Origin: Lysobacterales bacterium
Lineage (GTDB): Bacteria > Pseudomonadota > Gammaproteobacteria > Xanthomonadales > Marinicellaceae
Length of the DNA: 10,927 bases
Direction: 5' to 3'
Assembly: GCA_015494035.1 (NCBI GenBank)
Contig: WGBZ01000207.1
Coordinates: 1 to 10,927, forward strand
This document shows positions 893 to 9,895 of this stretch, piece after piece; positions within the stretch are counted from its first letter, which is position 1; each line of letters starts with the position of its first letter. The notes beneath the pieces were generated by a model, which was not told the origin of the DNA, searched no databases, and saw only the letters and a program-made list of their open reading frames with translations. Both the position numbers and the translations under genes were made by a program.

Positions 893-1049
893 GGAAGCTC
901 TGGTCGAATAGTGAACTCGCTTCTCATACCTGAAATGTCCGATAACTGCGTTGAAGTTCTTGCCAATAGCCCGCTATTGGCAAGAACTTCGCCTTGTTCT
1001 CGAACATTTCCGGCATAACCTGCTTCGTCCAGATTCGACCAGAGCTTCC
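893..1049. mobile_element. Palindromic MITE-like element, copy 1 (subfamily A)
   Basis: This 157-bp element has inverted termini GGAAGCTCTGGTCGAAT at both ends and is flanked by ttaa (889-892 and 1050-1053), read as a 4-bp target duplication. The two halves are imperfect reverse complements along their whole length and meet at a centre GCCAATAGC-cc-GCTATTGGC, so either strand can fold into one long hairpin. It carries no plausible gene. It lies 4 bases past the zinc-ribbon stop codon (the target repeat fills the gap) and before the convergent hsp20 terminator. Transcripts of the zinc-ribbon gene should therefore end in or beyond it. It is closest to copy 5, but in the opposite orientation. 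Confidence 0.88.
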
Positions 1050-1093
1050 TTAAGAAGGTTTTTGGGTTTCTGCCTAATGCGGACAGGGTAAAT

Positions 1094-1125
1094 AAAAAAG
1101 GCCCGCCCTGAATCCAGAGCAGGCC
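1094..1125 (-). terminator. Intrinsic terminator of hsp20
   Basis: On the minus strand, GGCCTGCTCTG, a GATT loop and CAGGGCGGGCC form an 11-bp stem (two G-T wobbles), followed directly by six T residues. It lies about 20 bases past the hsp20 stop. There is no T-run in the plus direction, so it should act only for hsp20. Confidence 0.88.
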
Positions 1126-1146
1126 CCAGAGGGAGTCTGGTCGCTA

Positions 1147-1647
1147 TCAGGCGACTTTATGCGCGCTGGTTTCCCGCACTTCGGCGCTTTCAGCCGCTTC
1201 GGCGGAAGATTCCAGCAGCGACTGACTGCCAATTTCAATCCGTCTTGGCTTCATGGCCTCGGGAATTTCTTTCACCAGTTCAATGGTTAACAGGCCATTG
1301 TCCATGTGTGCGCCCACCACGCGAACGTGGTCGGCAAGTTGGAACTTGCGTTCAAACGCACGGGTGGCAATGCCCCTATGCAGGAACTGGCGATTTTTTT
1401 CTTCCTTGACTTCCCGAACCTTGCCTCTGATGGTCAGCAGGTTGGGTTCGGTCAGGATTTCGATGTCATCCTTGTTGAAGCCGGCCAGAGCCAAGGTGAT
1501 TTTGTACTTGTCATCGCCTTCCACTTCGATGTTGTAAGGCGGGTAGGACAAGTTGCCTTGCTCGGTGCGGGCCACCTGATCAAGCAGGCTGGCCATGCGA
1601 TCAAAACCAATGGCAGTTCTGAAAAGTGGAGTGAAATCAACGTTCAT
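1147..1647 (-). CDS. ibpA: IbpA-type small heat-shock protein (Hsp20)
   Basis: This is an ATP-independent holdase chaperone that binds unfolding proteins and aggregates in the cytoplasm and hands them to the DnaK and ClpB system. The N-terminus NVDFTPLFRTAIGFDRMASL and the YPPYNIEV motif match enterobacterial IbpA/IbpB closely. The alpha-crystallin domain spans about residues 38-125, with AFERKFQLADHVRVVGA and the family signature GLLTIEL. The C-terminal oligomerisation I-x-I motif is present in PRRIEIGS. At 166 residues it is about 25-30 longer than E. coli IbpA, the excess being an Ala/Glu/Ser-rich tail. I chose the ATG at 1645-1647, seven bases from GGAGG. An adjacent GTG at 1648-1650 would add one residue but is only four bases away. 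A sigma-32 promoter, a three-hairpin leader and a terminator make it a self-contained heat-shock unit. Confidence 0.95.
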   Translation of the reverse strand: MNVDFTPLFRTAIGFDRMASLLDQVARTEQGNLSYPPYNIEVEGDDKYKITLALAGFNKDDIEILTEPNLLTIRGKVREVKEEKNRQFLHRGIATRAFERKFQLADHVRVVGAHMDNGLLTIELVKEIPEAMKPRRIEIGSQSLLESSAEAAESAEVRETSAHKVA

Positions 1648-1648
1648 C

Positions 1649-1745
1649 ACATATCCTCCCTATCAGCAATATGTTTTGACTTCCTCCGGTGTTTCCGCTG
1701 AAACCACCGGAGCCCACATTGTCCACAGGCCAAAGCCCTGTGGAT
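1649..1745 (-). promoter_or_regulatory. ROSE-like RNA thermometer in the hsp20 leader
   Basis: The predicted leader of about 97 bases folds into three successive hairpins (5' to 3' on the minus strand). Hairpin I at 1743-1723 has stem CCACAGG/CCTGTGG. Hairpin II at 1712-1684 pairs CTCCGGT with ACCGGAG and GTTTC with GAAAC, leaving one bulged G. Hairpin III at 1674-1649 pairs ACATAT with ATATGT, continues T-G, skips one G, then pairs CT with AG. Hairpin III buries the Shine-Dalgarno AGGAGG-like stretch and places the TTGCT motif opposite AGGA, as ROSE elements of ibpA genes do. The known role of such elements is to block ribosome access at low temperature and melt on heating. The fold was done by eye. 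Confidence 0.8.
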
Positions 1746-1752
1746 GCCTTGA

Positions 1753-1780
1753 TTATGGGGATTGGTGGCAGAATTTCAAG
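1753..1780 (-). promoter_or_regulatory. Sigma-32 (RpoH) heat-shock promoter of hsp20
   Basis: On the minus strand, CTTGAAA (1774-1780) is followed by a 13-base spacer and CCCCATAA (1753-1760), almost exactly the sigma-32 consensus CTTGAAA-N(11-16)-CCCCATNT. The predicted start of transcription is near 1745, immediately before the first leader hairpin. Confidence 0.9.
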
Positions 1781-1846
1781 GGGTAGAAAGGGCCGTAAAG
1801 AGCTGAAATGGCAGAGATAAACTGGAGAGTCCGGGCCGGCTATTAG

Positions 1847-2006
1847 GGAGCCTCTGATCGAATCGTGACACGGCATCTTGTGGCGTAAAATTGTCCATTT
1901 CTGCGTTGCAAACCTTCACAATAGCTCGCTATTGCGTGCGGTTTGCGCCTTGAACTGAACAATTTTTCACGACAATCTGCTCGCGCCAGATTCAATCAGA
2001 GGCTCC
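1847..2006. mobile_element. Palindromic MITE-like element, copy 2 (subfamily B)
   Basis: This 160-bp element has ends GGAGCCTCTGAT and ATCAGAGGCTCC and is flanked by ttag (1843-1846 and 2007-2010). Its halves are imperfect reverse complements, centred on CAATAGC-tc-GCTATTG. The right-hand target repeat contains the ubiA stop codon (2007-2009, TAA on the minus strand), so insertion happened precisely at the end of ubiA. No intrinsic terminator is seen between ubiA and the hsp20 promoter, so ubiA mRNA probably carries this element in its 3' end. It has the same orientation as copy 4, with only about five differences in the first 79 bases. Confidence 0.9.
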
Positions 2007-2894
2007 TTAGCGAGCCAGGTAAGCGGCCAGGATGCCGACAAAAATGGCCATGCCCACCCAGTTATTGCTCACAAAGGCCCGAAAACACTGCTCCGGGTCG
2101 CGTTCTTCGATGATAGCCAATTGCCACAGGAACAGCGCCGCTGCGGTCAACAGGCCCAGGTAATACCACCAGTTCAGGCCCAGTTTCAGCCCCAGTAGCA
2201 GCATGACAAACAGGAATAGTGCCTGAATGATGCCGGTAATGACCCGATCCAGTTCGCCAAAAAGGATGGCAGTGGATTTGACGCCGATTTTCAGGTCGTA
2301 CGGGCGGTCGATCAGCGCGTAAATGGTGTCGTAGGCGGTGGTCCACAATATGGCGGCAATAAATAGCAGCCAGGCTTCGGCCGGGATTTCTCCACGCACT
2401 TCGGCAAAGGCCATGGGAATGCCCATGGCAAAGGCCATGCCCAGATACACCTGCGGCAACCAGGTGTATCGCTTCATGAAAGGATAAGTGGTGGCCAGGA
2501 AAACCGCTACAAAAGCCAGTTTGACCGTCAAGGGTTTCAAGGCCAGTAACAACAGCGCGGCCAGTCCAATCAGGGCAAAAAACAGCGCGTAGGCGTGTGG
2601 CACGGGCACTTCTTTGCTGGCCAGCGGCCGGTTCCGGGTTCGGGCCACGTGGCCATCGAAGCCCCGGTCAGCTATGTCATTGATTACGCAACCGGCCGAG
2701 CGCATGAGGAACACACCCAGCACAAATACGATCAGGGTTTTGATGTCCGGCAGGCCTTCGGCGGCAATCCACAGCGCCCACAAAGTGGGCCACAGCAACA
2801 ACAAGGTGCCGATGGGGCGGTCCAGCCGCATCAGGCGAAAGTAGGGGTCAAGTTTCTTAAGCAGCGCTTTGAGCTGCGGTTGGCCATTGGGCAT
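2007..2894 (-). CDS. ubiA: 4-hydroxybenzoate octaprenyltransferase
   Basis: UbiA attaches the polyprenyl tail to 4-hydroxybenzoate, the first membrane-bound step of ubiquinone biosynthesis, at the inner membrane. The 295 residues have the usual family length and about eight or nine hydrophobic helices. Both Asp-rich motifs that bind Mg-prenyl diphosphate are present: NDIADRGFD at about 72-80, followed by GHVARTRNRPL, and YDTIYALIDRPYD at about 188-200, followed by LKIGVKSTAILFG. The start at 2892-2894 has no good Shine-Dalgarno (AGACCCCC precedes it), but the N-terminal RLMRLDRPIGTLLLLWPTLWAL aligns with E. coli UbiA. No ubiC (chorismate lyase) lies beside it in this window. It is divergent from trmL, with 56 bases between them. 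Its stop codon lies in the target duplication of palindromic copy 2. Confidence 0.97.
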   Translation of the reverse strand: MPNGQPQLKALLKKLDPYFRLMRLDRPIGTLLLLWPTLWALWIAAEGLPDIKTLIVFVLGVFLMRSAGCVINDIADRGFDGHVARTRNRPLASKEVPVPHAYALFFALIGLAALLLLALKPLTVKLAFVAVFLATTYPFMKRYTWLPQVYLGMAFAMGIPMAFAEVRGEIPAEAWLLFIAAILWTTAYDTIYALIDRPYDLKIGVKSTAILFGELDRVITGIIQALFLFVMLLLGLKLGLNWWYYLGLLTAAALFLWQLAIIEERDPEQCFRAFVSNNWVGMAIFVGILAAYLAR

Positions 2895-2915
2895 GGGGGT
2901 CTGGCAACGTATAAT
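2887..2915 (+). promoter_or_regulatory. Sigma-70 promoter of trmL
   Basis: TTGGGC (2887-2892) and a perfect TATAAT (2910-2915) are separated by 17 bases, giving a leader of about 30 bases before the ATG at 2951. The -35 box overlaps the first codons of the divergent ubiA gene. Confidence 0.65.
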
Positions 2916-2950
2916 GCAAAGCCCTATTTTATCAGAAGGCCCGCAGCCGC

Positions 2951-3415
2951 ATGTTTCACATTGTGCTCTATGAGCCGGAAATTCCGCCCAACACCGGTAA
3001 TATCATGCGCCTGTGTGCCAACACTGGCGCGCACTTGCACCTGATTCATCCCCTGGGCTTTTCACTGCAGGAAAAAGCCCTGCGTCGGGCCGGGCTGGAT
3101 TACCGCGAGTGGGCCAGCGTCAGGCAGTATGCCGACTATGCCGATTTCACCCAGAAAAACCCGGACATTCGCCTGTTTGCCTGCACCACCAAAGCGGCAC
3201 GGTTTCACACCCGGCCAAGTTACCGAAGAGGCGAAGGGTTTTTGTTTGGACCGGAAACCCGGGGTTTGCCGGAAAGTCTGCTCGAATCCTTGCCGGAGGA
3301 ACAGAAAATCCGCATTCCTATGCAGCCGCACAGTCGCAGCCTGAATCTGTCCAACGCGGTGGCCGTGGTTTTGTATGAAGCCTTGCGCCAAAGTGACTTT
3401 GAAGGCCTGGGTTGA
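2951..3415 (+). CDS. trmL: tRNA (cytidine/uridine-2'-O-)-methyltransferase TrmL
   Basis: TrmL is a SPOUT-class, AdoMet-dependent methyltransferase that modifies the 2'-hydroxyl of the wobble nucleotide 34 in two tRNA-Leu isoacceptors. The 154-residue length equals that of E. coli TrmL (YibK). The N-terminal MFHIVLYEPEIPPNTGNIMR carries the conserved N-T-G-N-I-x-R motif. The knotted AdoMet site is seen as FLFGPETRGLP, and IPMQPHSRSLNLSNAVAVVLYEALRQ forms the last motif with the conserved Ser-Leu-Asn-Leu. It is a single-gene unit with its own promoter and a terminator about 30 bases past the stop. Confidence 0.97.
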   Translation: MFHIVLYEPEIPPNTGNIMRLCANTGAHLHLIHPLGFSLQEKALRRAGLDYREWASVRQYADYADFTQKNPDIRLFACTTKAARFHTRPSYRRGEGFLFGPETRGLPESLLESLPEEQKIRIPMQPHSRSLNLSNAVAVVLYEALRQSDFEGLG

Positions 3416-3442
3416 GCCGTATTCTGCCATTCTCTCCACAAA

Positions 3443-3465
3443 AAAAGCCGGCATAACCGGCTTTT
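3443..3465. terminator. Bidirectional intrinsic terminator between trmL and the protease gene
   Basis: AAAAGCCGG, a cataa loop and CCGGCTTTT form a 9-bp stem with T-tracts on both strands (longer on the minus strand, where seven or more T follow). It ends trmL in the plus direction and should also stop the convergent protease transcript after it has passed palindromic copy 3. Confidence 0.85.
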
Positions 3466-3492
3466 CGTGATGATTCCGGTTTTGTGGGTTAA

Positions 3493-3652
3493 GGAAGCTC
3501 TGATTGAATCTGGCGCGAGCAGATTGTTGTGGAAAATTGTTCAGTTCAAGGCGCAAACCGCACGTAATAGCAGGCTATTGCGAAGGTTTGCAACGCAGAA
3601 ATGGACAATTTGACGCCACAAGATGCCGTGTCACGATTCGATCAGAGCTTCC
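3493..3652. mobile_element. Palindromic MITE-like element, copy 3 (subfamily B)
   Basis: This 160-bp element has ends GGAAGCTCTGATTGAATC and GATTCGATCAGAGCTTCC and is flanked by ttaa (3489-3492 and 3653-3656). It is inverted relative to copies 2 and 4: the arm beginning GAATCTGGCGCGAGCAGATT is on its left here and on their right. The centre is AATAGC-agg-CTATT. It lies between convergent trmL and the S8 protease, ten bases past the protease stop codon, and beyond the shared terminator as seen from trmL. It should therefore be part of the protease mRNA 3' end. Confidence 0.9.
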
Positions 3653-3662
3653 TTAAGCGAGG

Positions 3663-6071
3663 CTATTCAAAGCCGTGCTGAAAAATCAGGTCCGTGCATG
3701 CTGAGGCCGCCGAGCCACTGATGCCGGTGGGCGTAATGGCCACCGTCAGTCGCGCATTGGGGCCCTGATTCGAGGCGTCATTGAGAACCACTTCACTGAA
3801 CACGGGCCCGGCATTGGTGCTGGTGACCTGGGCGCAAAAGGTCACGTCAATGCTTTCGCCCGGTTGCAGGGTAAAGCCGGCAGGCAGGCTGGAAAGCAGG
3901 TAATTGGCTGTATTCTGGGGTTGTACGTTCCAGTTGGTGACTTGTGAGCTGCGGTTGGTGAAGGTGCGATGCCAGACGCAGGTGCCGTTACAGTCGTTGG
4001 CGCGCAGGCTGGGAATATTCAGGCTGGCCGGATCGCCACCGCTGCCCGGGTTGGCCGCCAGGTAGTTGGCAAAGGTTTCGTTCATGGTCAACTTCGACAA
4101 GGCGGCCAGGCGCAGATCCACCATGCCACTGCCTACGTCATCGGGGGTGGCCTGCGTGCTGCCGTCTTCTTTTTTGGTGGTTTTGTCCGCAGTCATCATC
4201 AGGGCTGAACGGATTTCCGCCGGGCTCCAGTCCGGGTGCGCGGCCTTAATCAGGGCGGCAGAACCGGCCAGATGTGGGGAAGACATGGACGTGCCGCTGA
4301 TCATGCCGTACTGGGGTGCGGCCCCGGCATTATCGGCATAGGCCGCCATGATGTTGACCCCTGGGCCAGTGATGTCCGGCTTGGTCACGGAAAACGTGGT
4401 GTTTGGTCCGCGGAAGGAGAATGAGGCCAGCCGGTTGCCCAAACTGTCAATCAGGCGCCAGGTGGTGGTCGCCAGGATTTCAATGGTTGCTGCCGTGGGC
4501 AGGCTGCTGGTGATGAAGTCGCGCAAGGCTGTGCCATCGGCCAGCCCCACCATGACAGAGGGAATCGTGGTGGTGTTCAAGCCACCCATGACAATGGGAA
4601 CATCGCTGGCATTGTTGTAAACCACCACGGAAAGCGCGCCGGCGTTCATGGCATTATTGATCTTGTCGGCAAAAGCGCAGGAACCGCGGCTGATCAAAGC
4701 CACCGCGCCGGCAAATTCGTTGCCATTGGGCCAGGGGTTGCAGCCTTCAAAGTTGGACGGGTCCACATTGCCCGCATAAATGGCATTGGCATTGATATCG
4801 GCACCCAGTGCCGGGCCGCTGCCTTGCAGACCATACAGGTTCTGTGTGTTGGCCGGCGGTGTGCCCGGGCCGGTGGCGCTGACGTTGTTGCTGTTGGCGC
4901 GGTGGTGGGTGGAAGCGGCAATGGTCATGACCCAGGGGCCCAGGTGATTGACGTTGCCCACCGGATCCGGTGTGCCAGCGCTGGTGTTGCCAGCAGAAGC
5001 GGACACCACGATGCCGGCATTGACCGCGTCCAGAAACAACCGATCAGCGTCGTTCCAGGGGCTGAGGCCACCAGAGATAGAGAAGTTGATTACGTCCACG
5101 CCATCGGCAATGGCCTGGTTGATGGCGGCGGTGATGGCCGAGCCGGGGCAACTGTTTTCACACACGTCGTAGTTGATGATGTGCGCGTGCGGCGCCACGC
5201 CGGAAATACTGGGCGCATTGAGTGTGGCACCGGAGGTGGTGACAATAAAACCACCGGGCGGGGCGGTGATGGTATTGCCTGCGGCGGTGCTGGCTGTGTG
5301 CGAGCCGTGGCCGTTGGAATCTTCCGGGCCATCATTTTCTGCTGTCACCGCATCGGCAAAATCCCAGGCGCCGATGTGCTTGTCGTTACACACAAAAGCC
5401 GGGTTGAAGTTGGGGTTGTTCGGGTCGCACCAGCCAACAAAATTGCCAGCACCCAGCGGGTTGGCTGCGGAAAAATCATAGCCATCCTCGGGTGCATCGC
5501 TGAACGATGGATGGTCAAAGTTAATACCGGTATCAATCACACCAACGATTATCCCTTCGCCTTTGTTGGGCAGGTTGCCGGGCATATTGGTACCGCTCCA
5601 GAGGGTATCGGCACCAATCAGCAACGGGCCGGCATCCGTGTGCAGCTCGTAGTTTTTATCCGGTTCGACGCGTTTGATACCCTTGATGGTGGCCACTTTG
5701 GCGGCTTCTTCGGGGGTCAGGCGCACGGCCACGCCGTTCATGGCCAAGTCGTATTCAAAAACGGGAGTCACCGCCCGGCTCAATGCGCCCTGCATAGCGG
5801 CCAGTTTCTGTTGCTGCCGGCTTTTTAACCAGTGGCGGTATTCCACGGTGGCTGGCGAGCGGACATCCAGTTTGCGTTTTCCGGTCACGGCCGGGCTGGT
5901 GGCACGCAAGCCGGCTATGCCACCAGTGTAGCTGGCCACAGGTGGTTCCTCAAACTGAATTAGGTAAATGGCCTTGTCCGCGGCTTGTGTAGCAAAAGAC
6001 AGGCTTAAGGCAATGGCTGTCAGCACAGGCAAAAAGCCACGCTGACGGATGGACTGGATTGGTGAACTCAC
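3663..6071 (-). CDS. Secreted subtilisin-like (S8) serine protease with PA domain
   Basis: This is a predicted extracellular or periplasmic serine endopeptidase of 802 residues. A Sec signal peptide occupies about residues 1-31 (cleavage near ATQA-ADK), followed by an inhibitor-I9-like propeptide to about 145. The S8 domain has the catalytic triad Asp180 (GVIDTGI), His255 (NGHGSH) and Ser595 (GTSMSSPHLAG), with oxyanion Asn362 (SASAGN). A PA (protease-associated) domain is inserted at about 420-515 (GAVALISRGSCAFADKINNA). The C-terminal 130 residues look like a beta-rich, fibronectin-like region. The protein ends ACTDLIFQHGFE, a short tail after a Cys that may be a sorting or processing signal. 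Translation starts at a GTG, six bases after GGGAG. It is divergent from gltX and its stop lies ten bases from palindromic copy 3. All catalytic residues are present, so it is probably active. Confidence 0.93.
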   Translation of the reverse strand: MSSPIQSIRQRGFLPVLTAIALSLSFATQAADKAIYLIQFEEPPVASYTGGIAGLRATSPAVTGKRKLDVRSPATVEYRHWLKSRQQQKLAAMQGALSRAVTPVFEYDLAMNGVAVRLTPEEAAKVATIKGIKRVEPDKNYELHTDAGPLLIGADTLWSGTNMPGNLPNKGEGIIVGVIDTGINFDHPSFSDAPEDGYDFSAANPLGAGNFVGWCDPNNPNFNPAFVCNDKHIGAWDFADAVTAENDGPEDSNGHGSHTASTAAGNTITAPPGGFIVTTSGATLNAPSISGVAPHAHIINYDVCENSCPGSAITAAINQAIADGVDVINFSISGGLSPWNDADRLFLDAVNAGIVVSASAGNTSAGTPDPVGNVNHLGPWVMTIAASTHHRANSNNVSATGPGTPPANTQNLYGLQGSGPALGADINANAIYAGNVDPSNFEGCNPWPNGNEFAGAVALISRGSCAFADKINNAMNAGALSVVVYNNASDVPIVMGGLNTTTIPSVMVGLADGTALRDFITSSLPTAATIEILATTTWRLIDSLGNRLASFSFRGPNTTFSVTKPDITGPGVNIMAAYADNAGAAPQYGMISGTSMSSPHLAGSAALIKAAHPDWSPAEIRSALMMTADKTTKKEDGSTQATPDDVGSGMVDLRLAALSKLTMNETFANYLAANPGSGGDPASLNIPSLRANDCNGTCVWHRTFTNRSSQVTNWNVQPQNTANYLLSSLPAGFTLQPGESIDVTFCAQVTSTNAGPVFSEVVLNDASNQGPNARLTVAITPTGISGSAASACTDLIFQHGFE

Positions 6072-6219
6072 GGTGTACTCCCTCTGTTTCTCGGAAATGT
6101 AACATTTTGTTTTGAATGCTGACTTCTATGGAGGCCAGCTAGACGGTGCCCAGACACTACCTTTGTTTCCGGGGTGAATCAAGATGAGAAGACAAAAAAG
6201 GCCGAAAATTCCCGCCATT

Positions 6220-6228
6220 TGCTAAAAT
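6220..6228 (+). promoter_or_regulatory. Extended -10 promoter of gltX
   Basis: TGCTAAAAT matches the extended -10 form TGnTATAAT with one mismatch. No clear -35 box is present at 17 bases, as expected for this class. The leader would be about 23 bases. The rest of the 186-bp divergent region must also hold the protease promoter, which I could not identify. Confidence 0.5.
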
Positions 6229-6257
6229 AGCCGATTCTTTTTCGCGGATTCCGTTAA

Positions 6258-7661
6258 ATGACCGTTAAAACCCGTTTTGCCCCCAGCCCCACTGGGGTTT
6301 TGCACATTGGTGGTGCCCGTACCGCCTTGTTCTCCTGGCTGTTCGCCCGCCATCATGGTGGCGAGTTTGCCTTGCGCATTGAAGACACTGATCGTGAACG
6401 ATCAACTGAAGAATCCGTGCAGGCGATTCTGGACGGGATGGCCTGGTTGGGGCTGGATCATGATGGCGAGGTGGTGTTTCAGACCCAGCGCTTTGATCGC
6501 TATGGTGAACTGATCCAGCAACTGCTGGATGAAGGCAAGGCCTATTACTGCACCTGCTCCAAGGAGCGGTTGGAAAAATTGCGCGAAGAGCAAATGGCAG
6601 CGGGTGAAAAACCCCGTTATGACGGCAAATGCCGTCACGCCAATATCCCGGCCGGAACACCTGGAGCGGTGGTGCGGTTCAAGAATCCACTTGAAGGCGA
6701 GGTCAGTTTCCACGACCACGTGCGGGGGGGCATCACCGTCGGCAATGCCGAACTGGACGATTTGATTATCGCGCGTGCCGATGGCACACCCACCTACAAT
6801 TTTACCGTGGTGGTGGATGACATGGACATGGGCATGACCCACGTCATTCGCGGCGATGACCACATTAACAACACGCCTCGTCAGATTAATCTTTATCAGG
6901 CGCTGGGTGTCACGCCGCCGGCATTTGCCCACGTGCCCATGATTCTGGGGGATGACGGCAGCCGGCTTTCCAAGCGCCATGGCGCGGTGGGTGTCATGCA
7001 GTACGCCGAGGACGGCTATTTGCCCGAGGCGGTGCTGAATTACCTGGTGCGGCTGGGCTGGTCGCATGGCGATCAGGAAATTTTTTCGCGCGAGGAAATG
7101 ATCCGTCTGTTTGACCTCAAGGGCATTAATCGCGCCCCGTCCACTTTTAACACTTCCAAGCTCAACTGGCTGAACCAGCATTATATCCAGCAGGCCGACA
7201 ACGCGCGGCTGGCTGCTTTGTTGGCCGAGCGGCTGAAAAAAATGAAGCTGGCCGTGCCAGAAGGCATGAACCTGGAAGACGTGGTGGCCCTGTTCAAGGA
7301 ACGCAGCGTCACCATCAACGACATGGCCGAGCAGGCACGTTTTCTGTTTGAGCCGATCAGCGACTATGACGCCAAAGCTGATAAAAAAATATTCCGTGCC
7401 GCTGCCCTGGAACCACTGCAGACCCTGCGTCAGCGACTGGCCGAGATTGAAAACTGGCAAGAGGTTGATCTGCACGCAGTCATCGAACAAGTGGTCAATG
7501 ACCTGGGCGTGGGATTTGGCAAGGTGGGTCAACCGCTGCGCCTGGCGCTCACCGGCAAGTCCGGTGGCCCGGCCAACGATGTGATATTACGCCTGTTGGG
7601 CAAGGACGAGAGCCTGCGCCGCATTGACCAGGCCATCGCGCATTTGCAAAGGAACCTCTGA
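6258..7661 (+). CDS. gltX: Glutamyl-tRNA synthetase
   Basis: GltX is a class I aminoacyl-tRNA synthetase that charges tRNA-Glu with glutamate using ATP. The 467 residues fit the family length (about 465-475). The ATP-site motif is FAPSPTGVLHIGGARTALF (HIGG at 16-19, the usual GluRS variant of HIGH). The KMSKS-type loop is SRLSKRHGA at about 235-243. A zinc-binding set is visible at Cys98, Cys100, Cys125 and His127, as in E. coli GluRS. The C-terminal part is the helical anticodon-binding domain. The last codons (Arg partly, Asn, Leu and the TGA stop at 7659-7661) lie inside the left end of palindromic copy 4, so the insertion rewrote the very end of the protein without removing a known functional part. 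The Shine-Dalgarno is weak. Confidence 0.97.
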   Translation: MTVKTRFAPSPTGVLHIGGARTALFSWLFARHHGGEFALRIEDTDRERSTEESVQAILDGMAWLGLDHDGEVVFQTQRFDRYGELIQQLLDEGKAYYCTCSKERLEKLREEQMAAGEKPRYDGKCRHANIPAGTPGAVVRFKNPLEGEVSFHDHVRGGITVGNAELDDLIIARADGTPTYNFTVVVDDMDMGMTHVIRGDDHINNTPRQINLYQALGVTPPAFAHVPMILGDDGSRLSKRHGAVGVMQYAEDGYLPEAVLNYLVRLGWSHGDQEIFSREEMIRLFDLKGINRAPSTFNTSKLNWLNQHYIQQADNARLAALLAERLKKMKLAVPEGMNLEDVVALFKERSVTINDMAEQARFLFEPISDYDAKADKKIFRAAALEPLQTLRQRLAEIENWQEVDLHAVIEQVVNDLGVGFGKVGQPLRLALTGKSGGPANDVILRLLGKDESLRRIDQAIAHLQRNL

Positions 7662-7811
7662 TTGAATCGTGACACGGCATCTTGTGGCGTAAAATCGTCC
7701 ATTTCCGCGTTGCAAACCTTCGCAATAGCCTTGCTATTACGTACGGTTTGCGCCTTGAACTGAACAATTTTACACGCCAATCTGTTCGCGCCAGATTCAG
7801 TCAGAGCTTCC
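7651..7811. mobile_element. Palindromic MITE-like element, copy 4 (subfamily B)
   Basis: This 161-bp element has ends GGAACCTCTGATTGAATC and GATTCAGTCAGAGCTTCC. The flanks are caaa (7647-7650) and caga (7812-7815), a 4-bp repeat with one mismatch. The centre is CAATAGC-ctt-GCTATTA, and the two halves are imperfect reverse complements. Its left end overlaps the last ten bases of gltX and supplies the stop codon. It precedes the shared terminator at 7871-7902, so gltX mRNA should contain the whole element. It has the same orientation as copy 2. Slightly more mismatches between its ends suggest an older or drifting copy. Confidence 0.88.
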
Positions 7812-7870
7812 CAGAACAAGCTGGCCGCCGACGGCCCCTGAGACAGTCCCTTCCCTCACCTGAAAACATA

Positions 7871-7902
7871 AAAAGCCCCGCTGCTGAGCCGGGGCTTTTT
7901 TT
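7871..7902. terminator. Bidirectional intrinsic terminator between gltX and the hydratase gene
   Basis: AAAAGCCCCG, a nine-base loop and CGGGGCTTTT form a 10-bp stem. Seven T follow on the plus strand and an A-run precedes it, so it can serve gltX (plus) and the convergent hydratase gene (minus), whose stop is about 20 bases away. Confidence 0.88.
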
Positions 7903-7924
7903 GCGAGCGGGAGGTGTTTTTTAA

Positions 7925-8701
7925 TTACTTGCCTGAGAACCTCGCCGGACGCTTTTCCAGAAAGGCACTGGTGCCTTCAGCCTTGTCTTCGGTGGCGCAG
8001 CAGACGGCAAAGGCCTTGGCTTCATACGCCAACGCTTCGGGCAGGGCGCATTCGGCACCGTGATTGATGCTGTCTATAATCATCGACAGGGCCACGGGAG
8101 CGGACTGGCTCAATTGTTCGCCCATGGCCTGAGCGGTAGACAGCAGTTCGGATGGCGCCACCACCTTGTTTACCAGGCCAATGTCATGCGCGCGTTGGGC
8201 GTCGATCATGTCGCCCAACAGGTTCATCTCCATGGCCCGGCCCTTGCCCACCAGGCGTGTCAGGCGCTGGGTGCCACCAAAGCCGGGGATAACGCCCAGC
8301 TTGATTTCGGGTTGGCCAAAGCGGGCGTTTTCGCTCGCCAGGCGCAGGTGACAGGCCATGGCAAGTTCGCAGCCGCCGCCCAGGGCGAAGCCATTGACGG
8401 CCGCAATCACCGGCTTGGGGCTGTTTTCGATGCGGTTCATGACCTGTTGGCCGAATTCGGCAAAACGCAGCCCGGAAATGGCATCGGTTTGTGCCAGTTC
8501 GGCAATGTCCGCACCGGCAACGAAGGCTTTTTCGCCACTGCCGGTGATCACCAGCGCGCGGATGGACTCATCGCCAATGGCCTGGCTTATTGCCTCATCC
8601 AGTTCGGTGAGTGTTTCGTGATTCAGCGCATTGAGCTTGCTGGGCCGGTTGATGGTGATGGTCATGACGGCGTTGTGCGTGTTCAAAAGCAAGTTGTTCA
8701 T
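7925..8701 (-). CDS. Enoyl-CoA hydratase/isomerase family protein (crotonase)
   Basis: This probable enoyl-CoA hydratase would add water to trans-2-enoyl-CoA, as in fatty-acid or amino-acid breakdown. The 258 residues match the short monofunctional crotonase length. The oxyanion-hole segments are AFVAGADIAEL (about 59-69) and ALGGGCELAMACH (about 106-118). Both catalytic glutamates of true hydratases are present: Glu112 in GGGCE and Glu132 in FGQPEIKLGVIPGFGGTQRL. The C-terminal trimerisation tail ends TSAFLEKRPARFSGK, typical of the family. The start ATG follows AGGGA by about seven bases. It stands alone, with no thiolase or acyl-CoA dehydrogenase beside it, so the pathway (beta-oxidation, leucine, phenylacetate or crotonyl-CoA) cannot be told from context. 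Confidence 0.93.
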   Translation of the reverse strand: MNNLLLNTHNAVMTITINRPSKLNALNHETLTELDEAISQAIGDESIRALVITGSGEKAFVAGADIAELAQTDAISGLRFAEFGQQVMNRIENSPKPVIAAVNGFALGGGCELAMACHLRLASENARFGQPEIKLGVIPGFGGTQRLTRLVGKGRAMEMNLLGDMIDAQRAHDIGLVNKVVAPSELLSTAQAMGEQLSQSAPVALSMIIDSINHGAECALPEALAYEAKAFAVCCATEDKAEGTSAFLEKRPARFSGK

Positions 8702-8736
8702 GCGGTTTTCCCTAAAGGCCTCAAGTGAAGGGGGAA

Positions 8737-8745
8737 ATTATAACA
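8737..8745 (-). promoter_or_regulatory. Extended -10 promoter of the hydratase gene
   Basis: On the minus strand, TGTTATAAT is a perfect extended -10 (TGnTATAAT). It would give a leader of roughly 30 bases before the ATG at 8701. No good -35 box is visible. Confidence 0.55.
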
Positions 8746-8896
8746 TTGCTGGAACTTGAGCCACGGCCAGTGGGTCAGACAAACCGCTTGCACCGCTGTC
8801 GGTGCCGGCATAAAATACGCCATCCGCTGCCAGATGTGATCCCGTGTGGATGATGGCGGCTCCAGCCCGGCTGTTGCGATGTAACTGAGTGATCAT
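8738..8896 (-). other. Small open frame upstream of the hydratase gene, possible gene remnant
   Basis: A 52-codon frame runs from an ATG at 8894-8896 to TAA at 8738-8740. Its translation contains GAAIIHTGSHLAADGVFYAG, followed by TDSGASGLSDPLAVAQ, a composition that looks more protein-like than the antisense frames nearby. There is no Shine-Dalgarno, and its end overlaps the likely -10 box of the hydratase gene. It also lies opposite the FKBP promoter region. It may be chance, or the eroded end of a lost gene. I do not recognise a family. Confidence 0.2.
8788..8816 (+). promoter_or_regulatory. Candidate sigma-70 promoter of the FKBP gene
   Basis: TTGCAC (8788-8793), a 17-base spacer and TAAAAT (8811-8816) give a plausible promoter. 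It would leave a leader of about 115 bases before the ATG at 8938. The -10 is good and the -35 only moderate. I saw no strong structure in the leader. Confidence 0.45.
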
Positions 8897-8937
8897 CGAA
8901 AGCGCTGCGGTTTATTCAATCAAGAGGTTTATACTGC

Positions 8938-9663
8938 ATGAAAATTCGTCAATTACTGCTGGCAGGCATGATGCTGGTCGGTTCCGCTGCCCTGGCCCAG
9001 AAAGCCGAGGTCAGTGCCAAAGACATTCATTTCGACAAGAACAAGACATCCTACGCCATGGGCTTTCAACTGGGTCGCGACCTGGCCGCGCGCAAGGGCA
9101 CCGAGTTTGAACTGTCCATGGACGAAGTCCTCAAGGGCGTGCGTGATGCCTATGCCGGTAAGCAGCCGGCCTATGCCAAGGAAGACCTGATCAAGAACAT
9201 GACGGCCTTCGAGAAAAAAATGCGTGCCAAGCAGATAGAAACCTTCAAAAAGGTTGCCGAAGAAAACAAGAAACGCTCGGAAAAGTTTCTGGCCCAGAAT
9301 CGCAAGAAAAAAGGCATCAAGGAACTGCCTTCAGGCGTGCAATACCGCGTGATTGAAGAAGGTTCCGGCAAACGCCCGACGGCAGACAGTGAAGTGACCA
9401 TTCACTACCGCGGTTCCCTGATTGGCAAGGACAACTTTGACAACCTGCGCGAATTCGACAGTTCTTTCATTCGCGGTGTGCCACGCACATTCAAGGTCAA
9501 TGAAGTGCTCAAGGGCTGGCAGGAAGTACTGCCACTGATGAAAACCGGCGCCAAGTGGCAGGTGTTCATTCCACCTGAACTGGCTTATGGCATCCGTGGC
9601 CAGGGCCCCATTGGCCCCAACGAAGTGCTGGTGTTCGACATCAATCTGTTGGATGTCAAATAA
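8938..9663 (+). CDS. Periplasmic FKBP-type peptidyl-prolyl isomerase (FkpA/Mip-like)
   Basis: This is a peptidyl-prolyl cis-trans isomerase and folding helper in the periplasm. A signal peptide covers about residues 1-20 (MKIRQLLLAGMMLVGSAALA), with cleavage at or just after Ala20. Residues about 35-125 form the FKBP N-terminal dimerisation region (SYAMGFQLGRDLA), continuing into a long Lys/Glu-rich helix. The FKBP catalytic domain occupies about 130-241: GVQYRVIEEGSG, VTIHYRGSL, REFDSSFIRG, EVLKGWQEVLPLMKTGAKW, FIPPELAYG, GPIGPNEVLVFDINLL. Between YRGSLIG and FDSSF it has about five to six more residues (KDNFDNLRE) than the usual short turn. The total of 241 fits the FkpA/Mip/FklB group. AGAGG lies ten bases before the ATG. 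A strong terminator follows, so it is a single-gene unit. Confidence 0.94.
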   Translation: MKIRQLLLAGMMLVGSAALAQKAEVSAKDIHFDKNKTSYAMGFQLGRDLAARKGTEFELSMDEVLKGVRDAYAGKQPAYAKEDLIKNMTAFEKKMRAKQIETFKKVAEENKKRSEKFLAQNRKKKGIKELPSGVQYRVIEEGSGKRPTADSEVTIHYRGSLIGKDNFDNLREFDSSFIRGVPRTFKVNEVLKGWQEVLPLMKTGAKWQVFIPPELAYGIRGQGPIGPNEVLVFDINLLDVK

Positions 9664-9687
9664 GCCAGAACCACAAGTTATTCCTTC

Positions 9688-9718
9688 ACGGGCAGGTGTC
9701 AGCACTTGCCCGTTTTTT
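9688..9718 (+). terminator. Intrinsic terminator of the FKBP gene
   Basis: ACGGGCAGGTG, a tcag loop and CACTTGCCCGT form an 11-bp stem with one G-T wobble, followed by six T. It lies 25 bases after the stop codon and separates the gene from palindromic copy 5 and the NudL gene. Confidence 0.92.
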
Positions 9719-9728
9719 ATGCAGCAAG

Positions 9729-9887
9729 GGAAGCTCTGATTGAATCTGGATGAAGCAGGTTATGCCGGAAATATTCGAGAACAAGGTGAAGTTTGCAGCC
9801 AATAGCCAGGCTATTGGCAAGGACTTCAACGCAGTTATCGGGCATTTCAGGTATGAGATGCGAGTTCAAGATTCGATCAGAGCTTCC
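9729..9887. mobile_element. Palindromic MITE-like element, copy 5 (subfamily A)
   Basis: This 159-bp element has ends GGAAGCTCTGATTGAATC and GATTCGATCAGAGCTTCC and is flanked by caag (9725-9728 and 9888-9891), a perfect 4-bp duplication. The centre is GCCAATAGCC-a-GGCTATTGGC. Its right half, read in reverse complement, matches the left half of copy 1 (CTCATACCTGAAATG, CGATAACTGCGTTGAAGT), so it is inverted relative to copy 1. It lies just after the FKBP terminator and ends eight bases before the first ATG of the NudL gene, so it forms that gene's whole immediate upstream region. Confidence 0.9.
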
Positions 9888-9895
9888 CAAGGCAA

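Follow-up and report, generated by a model that had tools for sequence, protein, structure and literature searches.

What kind of sequence occurs five times in a single bacterial contig, is nearly palindromic along its full length and encodes no transposase? The contig is WGBZ01000207.1 from a Lysobacterales bacterium (assembly GCA_015494035.1); its 10,927 nucleotides, hereafter the window, are the complete contig C207 of a genome of 2.14 Mb (G000; 386 contigs, 88% complete). An initial annotation, made from the letters of the window, had described the repeats as an apparently undescribed family resembling miniature inverted-repeat transposable elements (MITEs), and had suggested that an enzyme acting in trans moved them, with the IS5 group of insertion sequences (IS) as a possible link. 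We report here that the copies moved by transposition with a 4-bp duplication, and that one strand of the element folds into a hairpin whose pairing covaries across genera. We consider it probable that they are ~159-bp non-autonomous palindromic (“snap-back”) transposons, mobilized in trans by IS5-group DDE transposases, and that their fold is selected during their own propagation.

The repeats are transposed elements

The five copies were found exactly at the positions of the initial annotation, with lengths of 157, 160, 160, 161 and 159 bp. A repeat search and folding both agree with its claim of full-length near-palindromy and, short and palindromic as they are, none encodes a transposase. 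They form two subfamilies, A (copies 2, 3 and 4) and B (copies 1 and 5), copies 3 and 5 being inverted. The 4-bp direct repeats are also present as described: copy 1 (893..1049) is flanked by TTAA at 889-892 and 1050-1053, copy 2 (1847..2006) by TTAG at 1843-1846 and 2007-2010, copy 3 (3493..3652) by TTAA at 3489-3492 and 3653-3656, copy 4 (7651..7811) by CAAA at 7647-7650 and CAGA at 7812-7815, the only mismatch, and copy 5 (9729..9887) by CAAG at 9725-9728 and 9888-9891. As a self-complementary sequence, TTAA carries no information by itself; genuine direct repeats are TTAG, CTAA and CAAG.

The terminus pattern GGARSCTCTGRTYGAAT occurs 343 times (171 + 172) in the whole genome, and its reversed control not at all (0 + 0). 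The flanking 4-mers, whose listing the initial annotation had proposed as a check, were examined in 137 non-redundant full copies from this genome, from its sister species G032 and, for four of them, from other lineages, after removal of copies with less than 12 bp of flank. They are identical in 71 copies, well above chance (permutation mean 19.4, maximum 36 in 20,000 shuffles). The consensus of the duplication is YTAR, to which 66 of the 71 identical pairs conform; YTAR stands on both sides of 80 copies, and the two sides agree in 66 of these against 21.4 expected. The fifth flanking base matches in 36 of the 137 copies, which is the chance level.

Empty sites, another check proposed, were found in G032, which belongs to the same genus. 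The sites of copies 1, 3 and 5 are unoccupied there and a single 4-mer replaces the two (TGCA, TTAA and CAGG respectively). At the site of copy 2, G032 carries an insertion of its own 8 bp off, at CTAG (read from two contig ends), and near copy 3 it carries a B copy of its own at another position of the same intergenic region. When 86 copies of this genome were compared with 47 of the sister, both flanks matched for two pairs only (L004/L145 and L008/L111), and the tandem pair L087 matched a third sister site; we read the remaining one-sided matches listed as flanks made of a neighboring copy, and two of them as weak. Several tandem copies are spaced by exactly 4 bp (C9 1236-1395/1400-1556, C314 4019-4179/4184-4341, C185 6369-6526/6531-6688), which is what insertion into the duplicated target of another copy would give.

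The empty sites and the 4-bp duplications establish the repeats as transposed elements, as the initial annotation had read them. Short, bounded by terminal inverted repeats, devoid of a transposase, flanked by a target duplication and absent from empty sites, they have the features by which MITEs are defined. Their divergence from their own subfamily consensus is low (median 5%).

Distribution and variants in Gammaproteobacteria

Within the family, exact termini were found in 2 of 33 genomes, both of this genus; G031, its third member, lacks them at 99% completeness. A scan for both exact ends in contigs from 84,980 species, which may leave out records of the own genome, returned 28 stretches in a Lysobacterales metagenome-assembled genome (MAG), two Sedimenticola MAGs and S144_22. 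The two Sedimenticola MAGs and S144_22 also hold variants, including subfamilies A, B and a third, C, some of them with GATTC-type ends. The few copies from other lineages (L096, L112 and mostly also L119) were excluded from the subfamily statistics.

The profile search that had been proposed was then made at the scale of the class, with a covariance model built from 26 such copies and scoring at most eight candidates per genome. The ~159-bp element was matched in 100 of 369 genomes sampled in the class (own included), in 77 of 272 genera; four genomes of the same order gave no match. Counting identical elements once, 34 genomes yielded 103 distinct elements, 102 of 155-162 bp and one of 210 bp. 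Identical 4-mers flank 45 of the 101 for which flanks were available (permutation mean 10.5, maximum 22), and 33 of the 45 are YTAR. The ends differ by lineage (TATTC, AATTC, AAGTC, and a second type GGGCACCTCTATTAATTC), with the interior architecture, the length and the fold kept. The second end type was seen on the same interior at L222, L225, L354-L356, L365 and L366.

Other forms were observed. Mini-copies of ~67 bp contain the outer arms alone (L113:5190-5256, also near L114:3207), and four elements with intact ends are lengthened by additional sequence at the tip of the hairpin or close to it: L173 (199 bp), L181 (194 bp), L187 (206 bp) and L203:2470-2679 (210 bp). Searches of plasmids and phages gave weak, unrelated or no matches. 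In viral contigs the class core was not found, and four single termini were, without a partner end (L171 being read at the terminus only); one of them, GGAGCCTCTGATTGAATC at L172:1104-1121, is immediately preceded by CTAG.

A candidate mobilizing enzyme

A search with DDE_Tnp_1 gave two matches in the own genome, none in G032, one in G033, none in G034 and three in G035. A search with DUF772 matched 19 of 50 genomes and yielded complete IS5-group elements of 1.17-1.19 kb: L237 (755-1945) and L251 (1273-2459) in G157, flanked by CTAA/CTAA and CTAG/CTAG respectively, and L238 (143-1313) in G334, flanked by CTAA/TTAA. Both genomes carry the MITE-like element, and the ends of the three IS closely match its ends. 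Their transposases (318-320 amino acids) match the IS5 model NF033581 with 354-370 bits for a cut-off of 140, and a protein search found relatives in 52 of the 369 genomes. At 15 of 30 loci an end pair with identical 4-bp flanks was recognized, ten being YTAR and one having poor ends, in a scan that rewarded motif and duplication and hence was not blind. YTAR is also the duplication motif given for IS5 in an excerpt of PMC10359306.

Two further observations bear on the enzyme. At a contig edge of G035, a genome that carries subfamilies A, B and C, L153 is a decayed IS5-group transposase, 88% identical over 52 residues to that of L237 and followed by one matching end, GGAACGTCTGATCTATTC; this relic counts for the IS5 reading. 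The end variant most common among the elements of G292, G229 and G049 is also the one carried by the resident IS, of which single ends are known in these genomes. Thus, the IS5 link of the initial annotation is strengthened by full-length IS with closely matching ends and YTAR-type flanks in other element-bearing genomes. An IS5-group transposase is the most likely candidate for the missing enzyme, and we infer that transposases like those of the other genomes would move the copies seen here. The interior of the element does not derive from any IS examined: a scan of 30 loci with DUF772 matches by model R1 (L276 being left out, as L368 covers the same copy) gave one partial match, outside the IS.

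Several other candidates were rejected. The IS5-like element L059 (G000:C174) has different ends of its own, ATAGTGTCGTCACGA, and CTAG flanks; it sits in or beside a damaged copy and its transposase frame is interrupted. The DUF772 protein of G000:C282 has other ends, and three of the four DDE_Tnp_1 matches of G033 and G035 have no such ends. IS701 also makes 4-bp duplications, but its end consensus, as published in the part of PMC2266710 available to us, does not fit. A coding sequence adjoining a terminus in G032 (L122) was discarded as an autonomous partner, since its relative in this genome (L161) is an IS110-family insertion into a terminus.

This IS110-family element (L161:1299-2480, G000:C167; NF033542, 352 bits) has a 12-bp subterminal repeat, GGCGGTGTCCAT, and lies in an element end. 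Its edge was seen at eight places of G032 (L160, L162-L168), at contig ends only. The IS110-family end adjoins GAGGYTCC at 9 of 9 places, so the ends of the element appear to be its target. An extract of PMC11187229 records IS1111-type elements whose targets are REP, attC or the ends of other transposons.

One strand folds, and its pairing covaries

The element folds in a strand-specific manner. For the five window copies the better strand is minus for copies 1 (-92.4 vs -76.4 kcal/mol), 2 (-90.2 vs -67.3) and 4 (-80.5 vs -58.2), and plus for copies 3 (-88.9 vs -60.1) and 5 (-81.7 vs -60.9). Relative to the element, the better-folding strand is the reverse complement in all 133 copies of this genus and in 102 of the 103 class elements (mean -77.7 vs -57.0 kcal/mol), although rows of the alignment are related and such counts are not independent events. 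The consensus energies are -72.0 kcal/mol for this strand and -33.7 for the other.

Covariation was measured on 33 elements aligned with MAFFT, of which 30 come from across the class, two are window copies and one is from Sedimenticola. Of 45 pairs, 34 have changed on both sides with pairing kept. The alignment scores 0.442 for covariation, compared with 0.127 for shuffled and at most 0.089 for slid versions, the pairing having been predicted from the very alignment that was scored, which favors it over the slid versions; the class copies had moreover been collected with a model that contains the structure.

The asymmetry between the arms is largely due to G-U pairing on the reverse-complement strand. 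A structure predicted from a single strand favors G-U by construction (703 vs 94), and we therefore rely on the 36 pairs predicted from both strands, in which G-U exceeds A-C by 152 to 63 cells and by 29 to 2 columns. Counted on the poorer strand, wobbles gave more A-C (54) than G-U (22), which exposed the other strand as the one that folds. A GA/GA loop is present in 67 of 105 rows.

A probable role of the fold during propagation

We then considered at which stage the fold would be selected, using the variants of subfamilies A and B in 133 copies of the own and sister genomes. Distinct transitions at paired sites keep pairing 63 times and break it 16 times when shared by at least two copies, against 38 and 31 when private (p = 0.0015), some keeping being expected by chance since a G-U pair becomes a Watson-Crick pair by any transition. 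Where the starting pair is Watson-Crick, private changes lead to G-U and A-C about equally (31 and 30) and shared ones mostly to G-U (182 and 51 copy-counts). Shared variants keep pairing more than private ones, which points to selection during the propagation of the element rather than for the host. Read most simply, the fold has its importance while the element is spreading, and copies decay once they are resident.

Could the element be an ordinary IS5-derived MITE, with a functionless interior and a fold left over from a few palindromic masters and horizontal transfer? Its ends, length and duplication are MITE-like, a median divergence of 5% is what recent bursts would give, and the even private changes indicate that resident copies decay freely. 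However, compensatory two-sided changes recur across genera (34/45 pairs), and palindromes simulated on 60 of the 103 arms with symmetric divergence show no bias for the better-folding strand (26/60, against 102/103 class copies). In addition, several unpaired bases are near-invariant (for example two AA steps, each in 102 of 105 rows), and no model match lies inside the IS5-group elements scanned. We hold this explanation to be rather unlikely.

It is somewhat harder to accept that single-stranded DNA and not RNA is the form in which the fold is selected, for instance at replication or in a strand-specific recombination step. DNA parameters prefer the same strand in 102 of 103 elements, with a smaller gap (mean -36 vs -29 kcal/mol), and in DNA G-T is better tolerated than A-C. 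This explanation would also suit the lack of a detectable promoter at copy 2 and of an orientation bias to genes. Against it, G-U predominates class-wide in several pair columns (for example 72, 64 and 61 of 105 rows), which suits RNA better, and the 4-bp duplication argues for a cut-and-paste movement in which the ends are double-stranded. We infer that the selected fold is one of RNA or of a single strand, RNA being the first choice because of the use of G-U.

A role for the host seems improbable. Stabilization or processing of transcripts at gene ends has been proposed for REP-like and NEMIS-like repeats, and the present copies do lie at gene ends or between genes: by a crude call, 118 of 120 placed copies are outside spanning open reading frames, 2 are spanned, and 11 at edges were unplaced. 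But their orientation has no clear bias, private variants decay neutrally, and nearly all sites differ between the sister genomes for the copies compared. Finally, a purely mutational origin, by which one strand exposed in transposition would undergo C>T and A>G changes and acquire unselected G-U pairs, would confine the asymmetry to inherited variants as observed, but is very improbable, since shared transitions at unpaired sites are undirected (15 vs 12) and the opposite change from G-U to Watson-Crick is frequent among shared variants (92 + 68 copies vs 18 + 0 breaking).

Several points weigh against selected folding and IS5-group mobilization. Besides the two ways, given above, in which the covariation analysis leans toward the structure, the contrast between shared and private variants keeps its direction but is weaker within each genome (p = 0.027 own, p = 0.12 sister). 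No promoter was detected in a scan of the surroundings of copy 2, and orientation relative to tandem genes is 44 vs 30. For the enzyme, the end variants of IS and element differ in G146 and G334, so that agreement is limited to 3 of 5 genomes; the presence of transposase and of element is not associated over the 369 genomes (17 shared, Fisher p = 0.32); and exact GAATC-type ends were found on no IS5-group IS in any genome examined. Nor was an IS5-group IS with matching ends found in the own genome or in G032, so that the search for a full-length partner, which the initial annotation had proposed, gave IS with closely matching ends elsewhere and not at home. Short-read MAGs easily lose IS present in several copies, and the absence from the own genome is for this reason weak evidence.

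Proposed mechanism and its meaning

In the mechanism that we propose, an IS5-group DDE transposase acting in trans would recognize the ~18-bp ends (GGAACCTCTGATYWATTC and variants; GGAAGCTCTGATYGAATC in this genome) and duplicate a 4-bp YTAR target on insertion. The interior is a conserved module: its reverse-complement strand folds into a hairpin that is nearly complete, contains G-U pairs and has conserved bases in its internal loops. Selection would act on a transcript, or else on DNA in single-stranded form, at one stage or another of the propagation of the element. That a hairpin of one strand is conserved across the class suggests that the RNA of the element matters for its own spread. 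We put forward more tentatively a stronger version, which we regard as possible: a mobile, fold-selected hairpin RNA of ~159 nucleotides would be present class-wide, spreading by means of the ends of any available IS5-group transposase and needing its RNA in its own propagation.

Bacterial MITEs are usually regarded as species-bound scraps of IS. Here the ends vary by lineage, and about a quarter of the Gammaproteobacteria sampled retain the interior, the length and the fold of one strand. We know of no RNA requirement in the movement of DDE-type miniature DNA transposons; such a need, if true, would be new. The family thus offers a testable case of a miniature DNA transposon with a selected RNA (or single-strand) structure, with recent insertions in sister genomes as a resource for experiments. 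The covariance model, the ends, the target and the likely partner transposase supply a definition for annotation.

Genes next to the window copies

Copies 1, 3 and 5 are intergenic. Copy 2 adjoins a minus-strand gene (2007-2894) whose stop codon is part of the duplicated TTAG. Copy 4 lies in the 3' end of the frame 6258-7661, which we take by eye to be gltX-like; the frame now terminates within the element with HLQRNL, and the displaced tail, NKLAADGP-stop, can be read from the sequence past the copy. Between copies 3 and 4 the minus strand encodes an 802-residue subtilisin-like protein (3663-6071), whose C-terminal end, FQHGFE, resembles a C-terminal motif of Lysobacterales proteins.

Comparison with known systems

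The family still appears undescribed, as the initial annotation had it. Searches of the literature, made also with terminus and core strings (subscription papers and ISfinder being outside the search), found no description of it, and Rfam with E up to 1 had nothing that matched an element, whether in the window or at seven loci. At L185:1698-1824 in Sedimenticola, beside and outside the element, RsmW of Rfam scored 47 bits, close to its gathering threshold of 52.

Correia/NEMIS, REP and ERIC are likewise palindromic, mostly intergenic and present in high copy number, but going by description their ends, length and duplication differ, as the initial annotation had also noted. The high copy number of ERIC is also given in an excerpt of PMC10969869. 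QMITE2 of Coxiella burnetii is closer: as far as the consulted part of PMC5896051 describes it, it is a palindromic MITE of 150-190 bp with a very stable stem, which overlaps gene ends and is a target of IS1111. Compared by description only, it differs by variable direct repeats of 7-11 bp (same extract), where the present element has 4-bp YTAR.

The IS5-group IS (NF033581) resemble the element in their ends, which match closely (GGAACCTCTGAWYAA...), and in their 4-bp duplications of YTAR type; unlike it they measure 1.15-1.3 kb and contain a transposase gene, and those scanned have no element-model match inside. The ends and the YTAR target fit the description of a MITE mobilized by the IS5 group, whose transposase would then carry out its movement.

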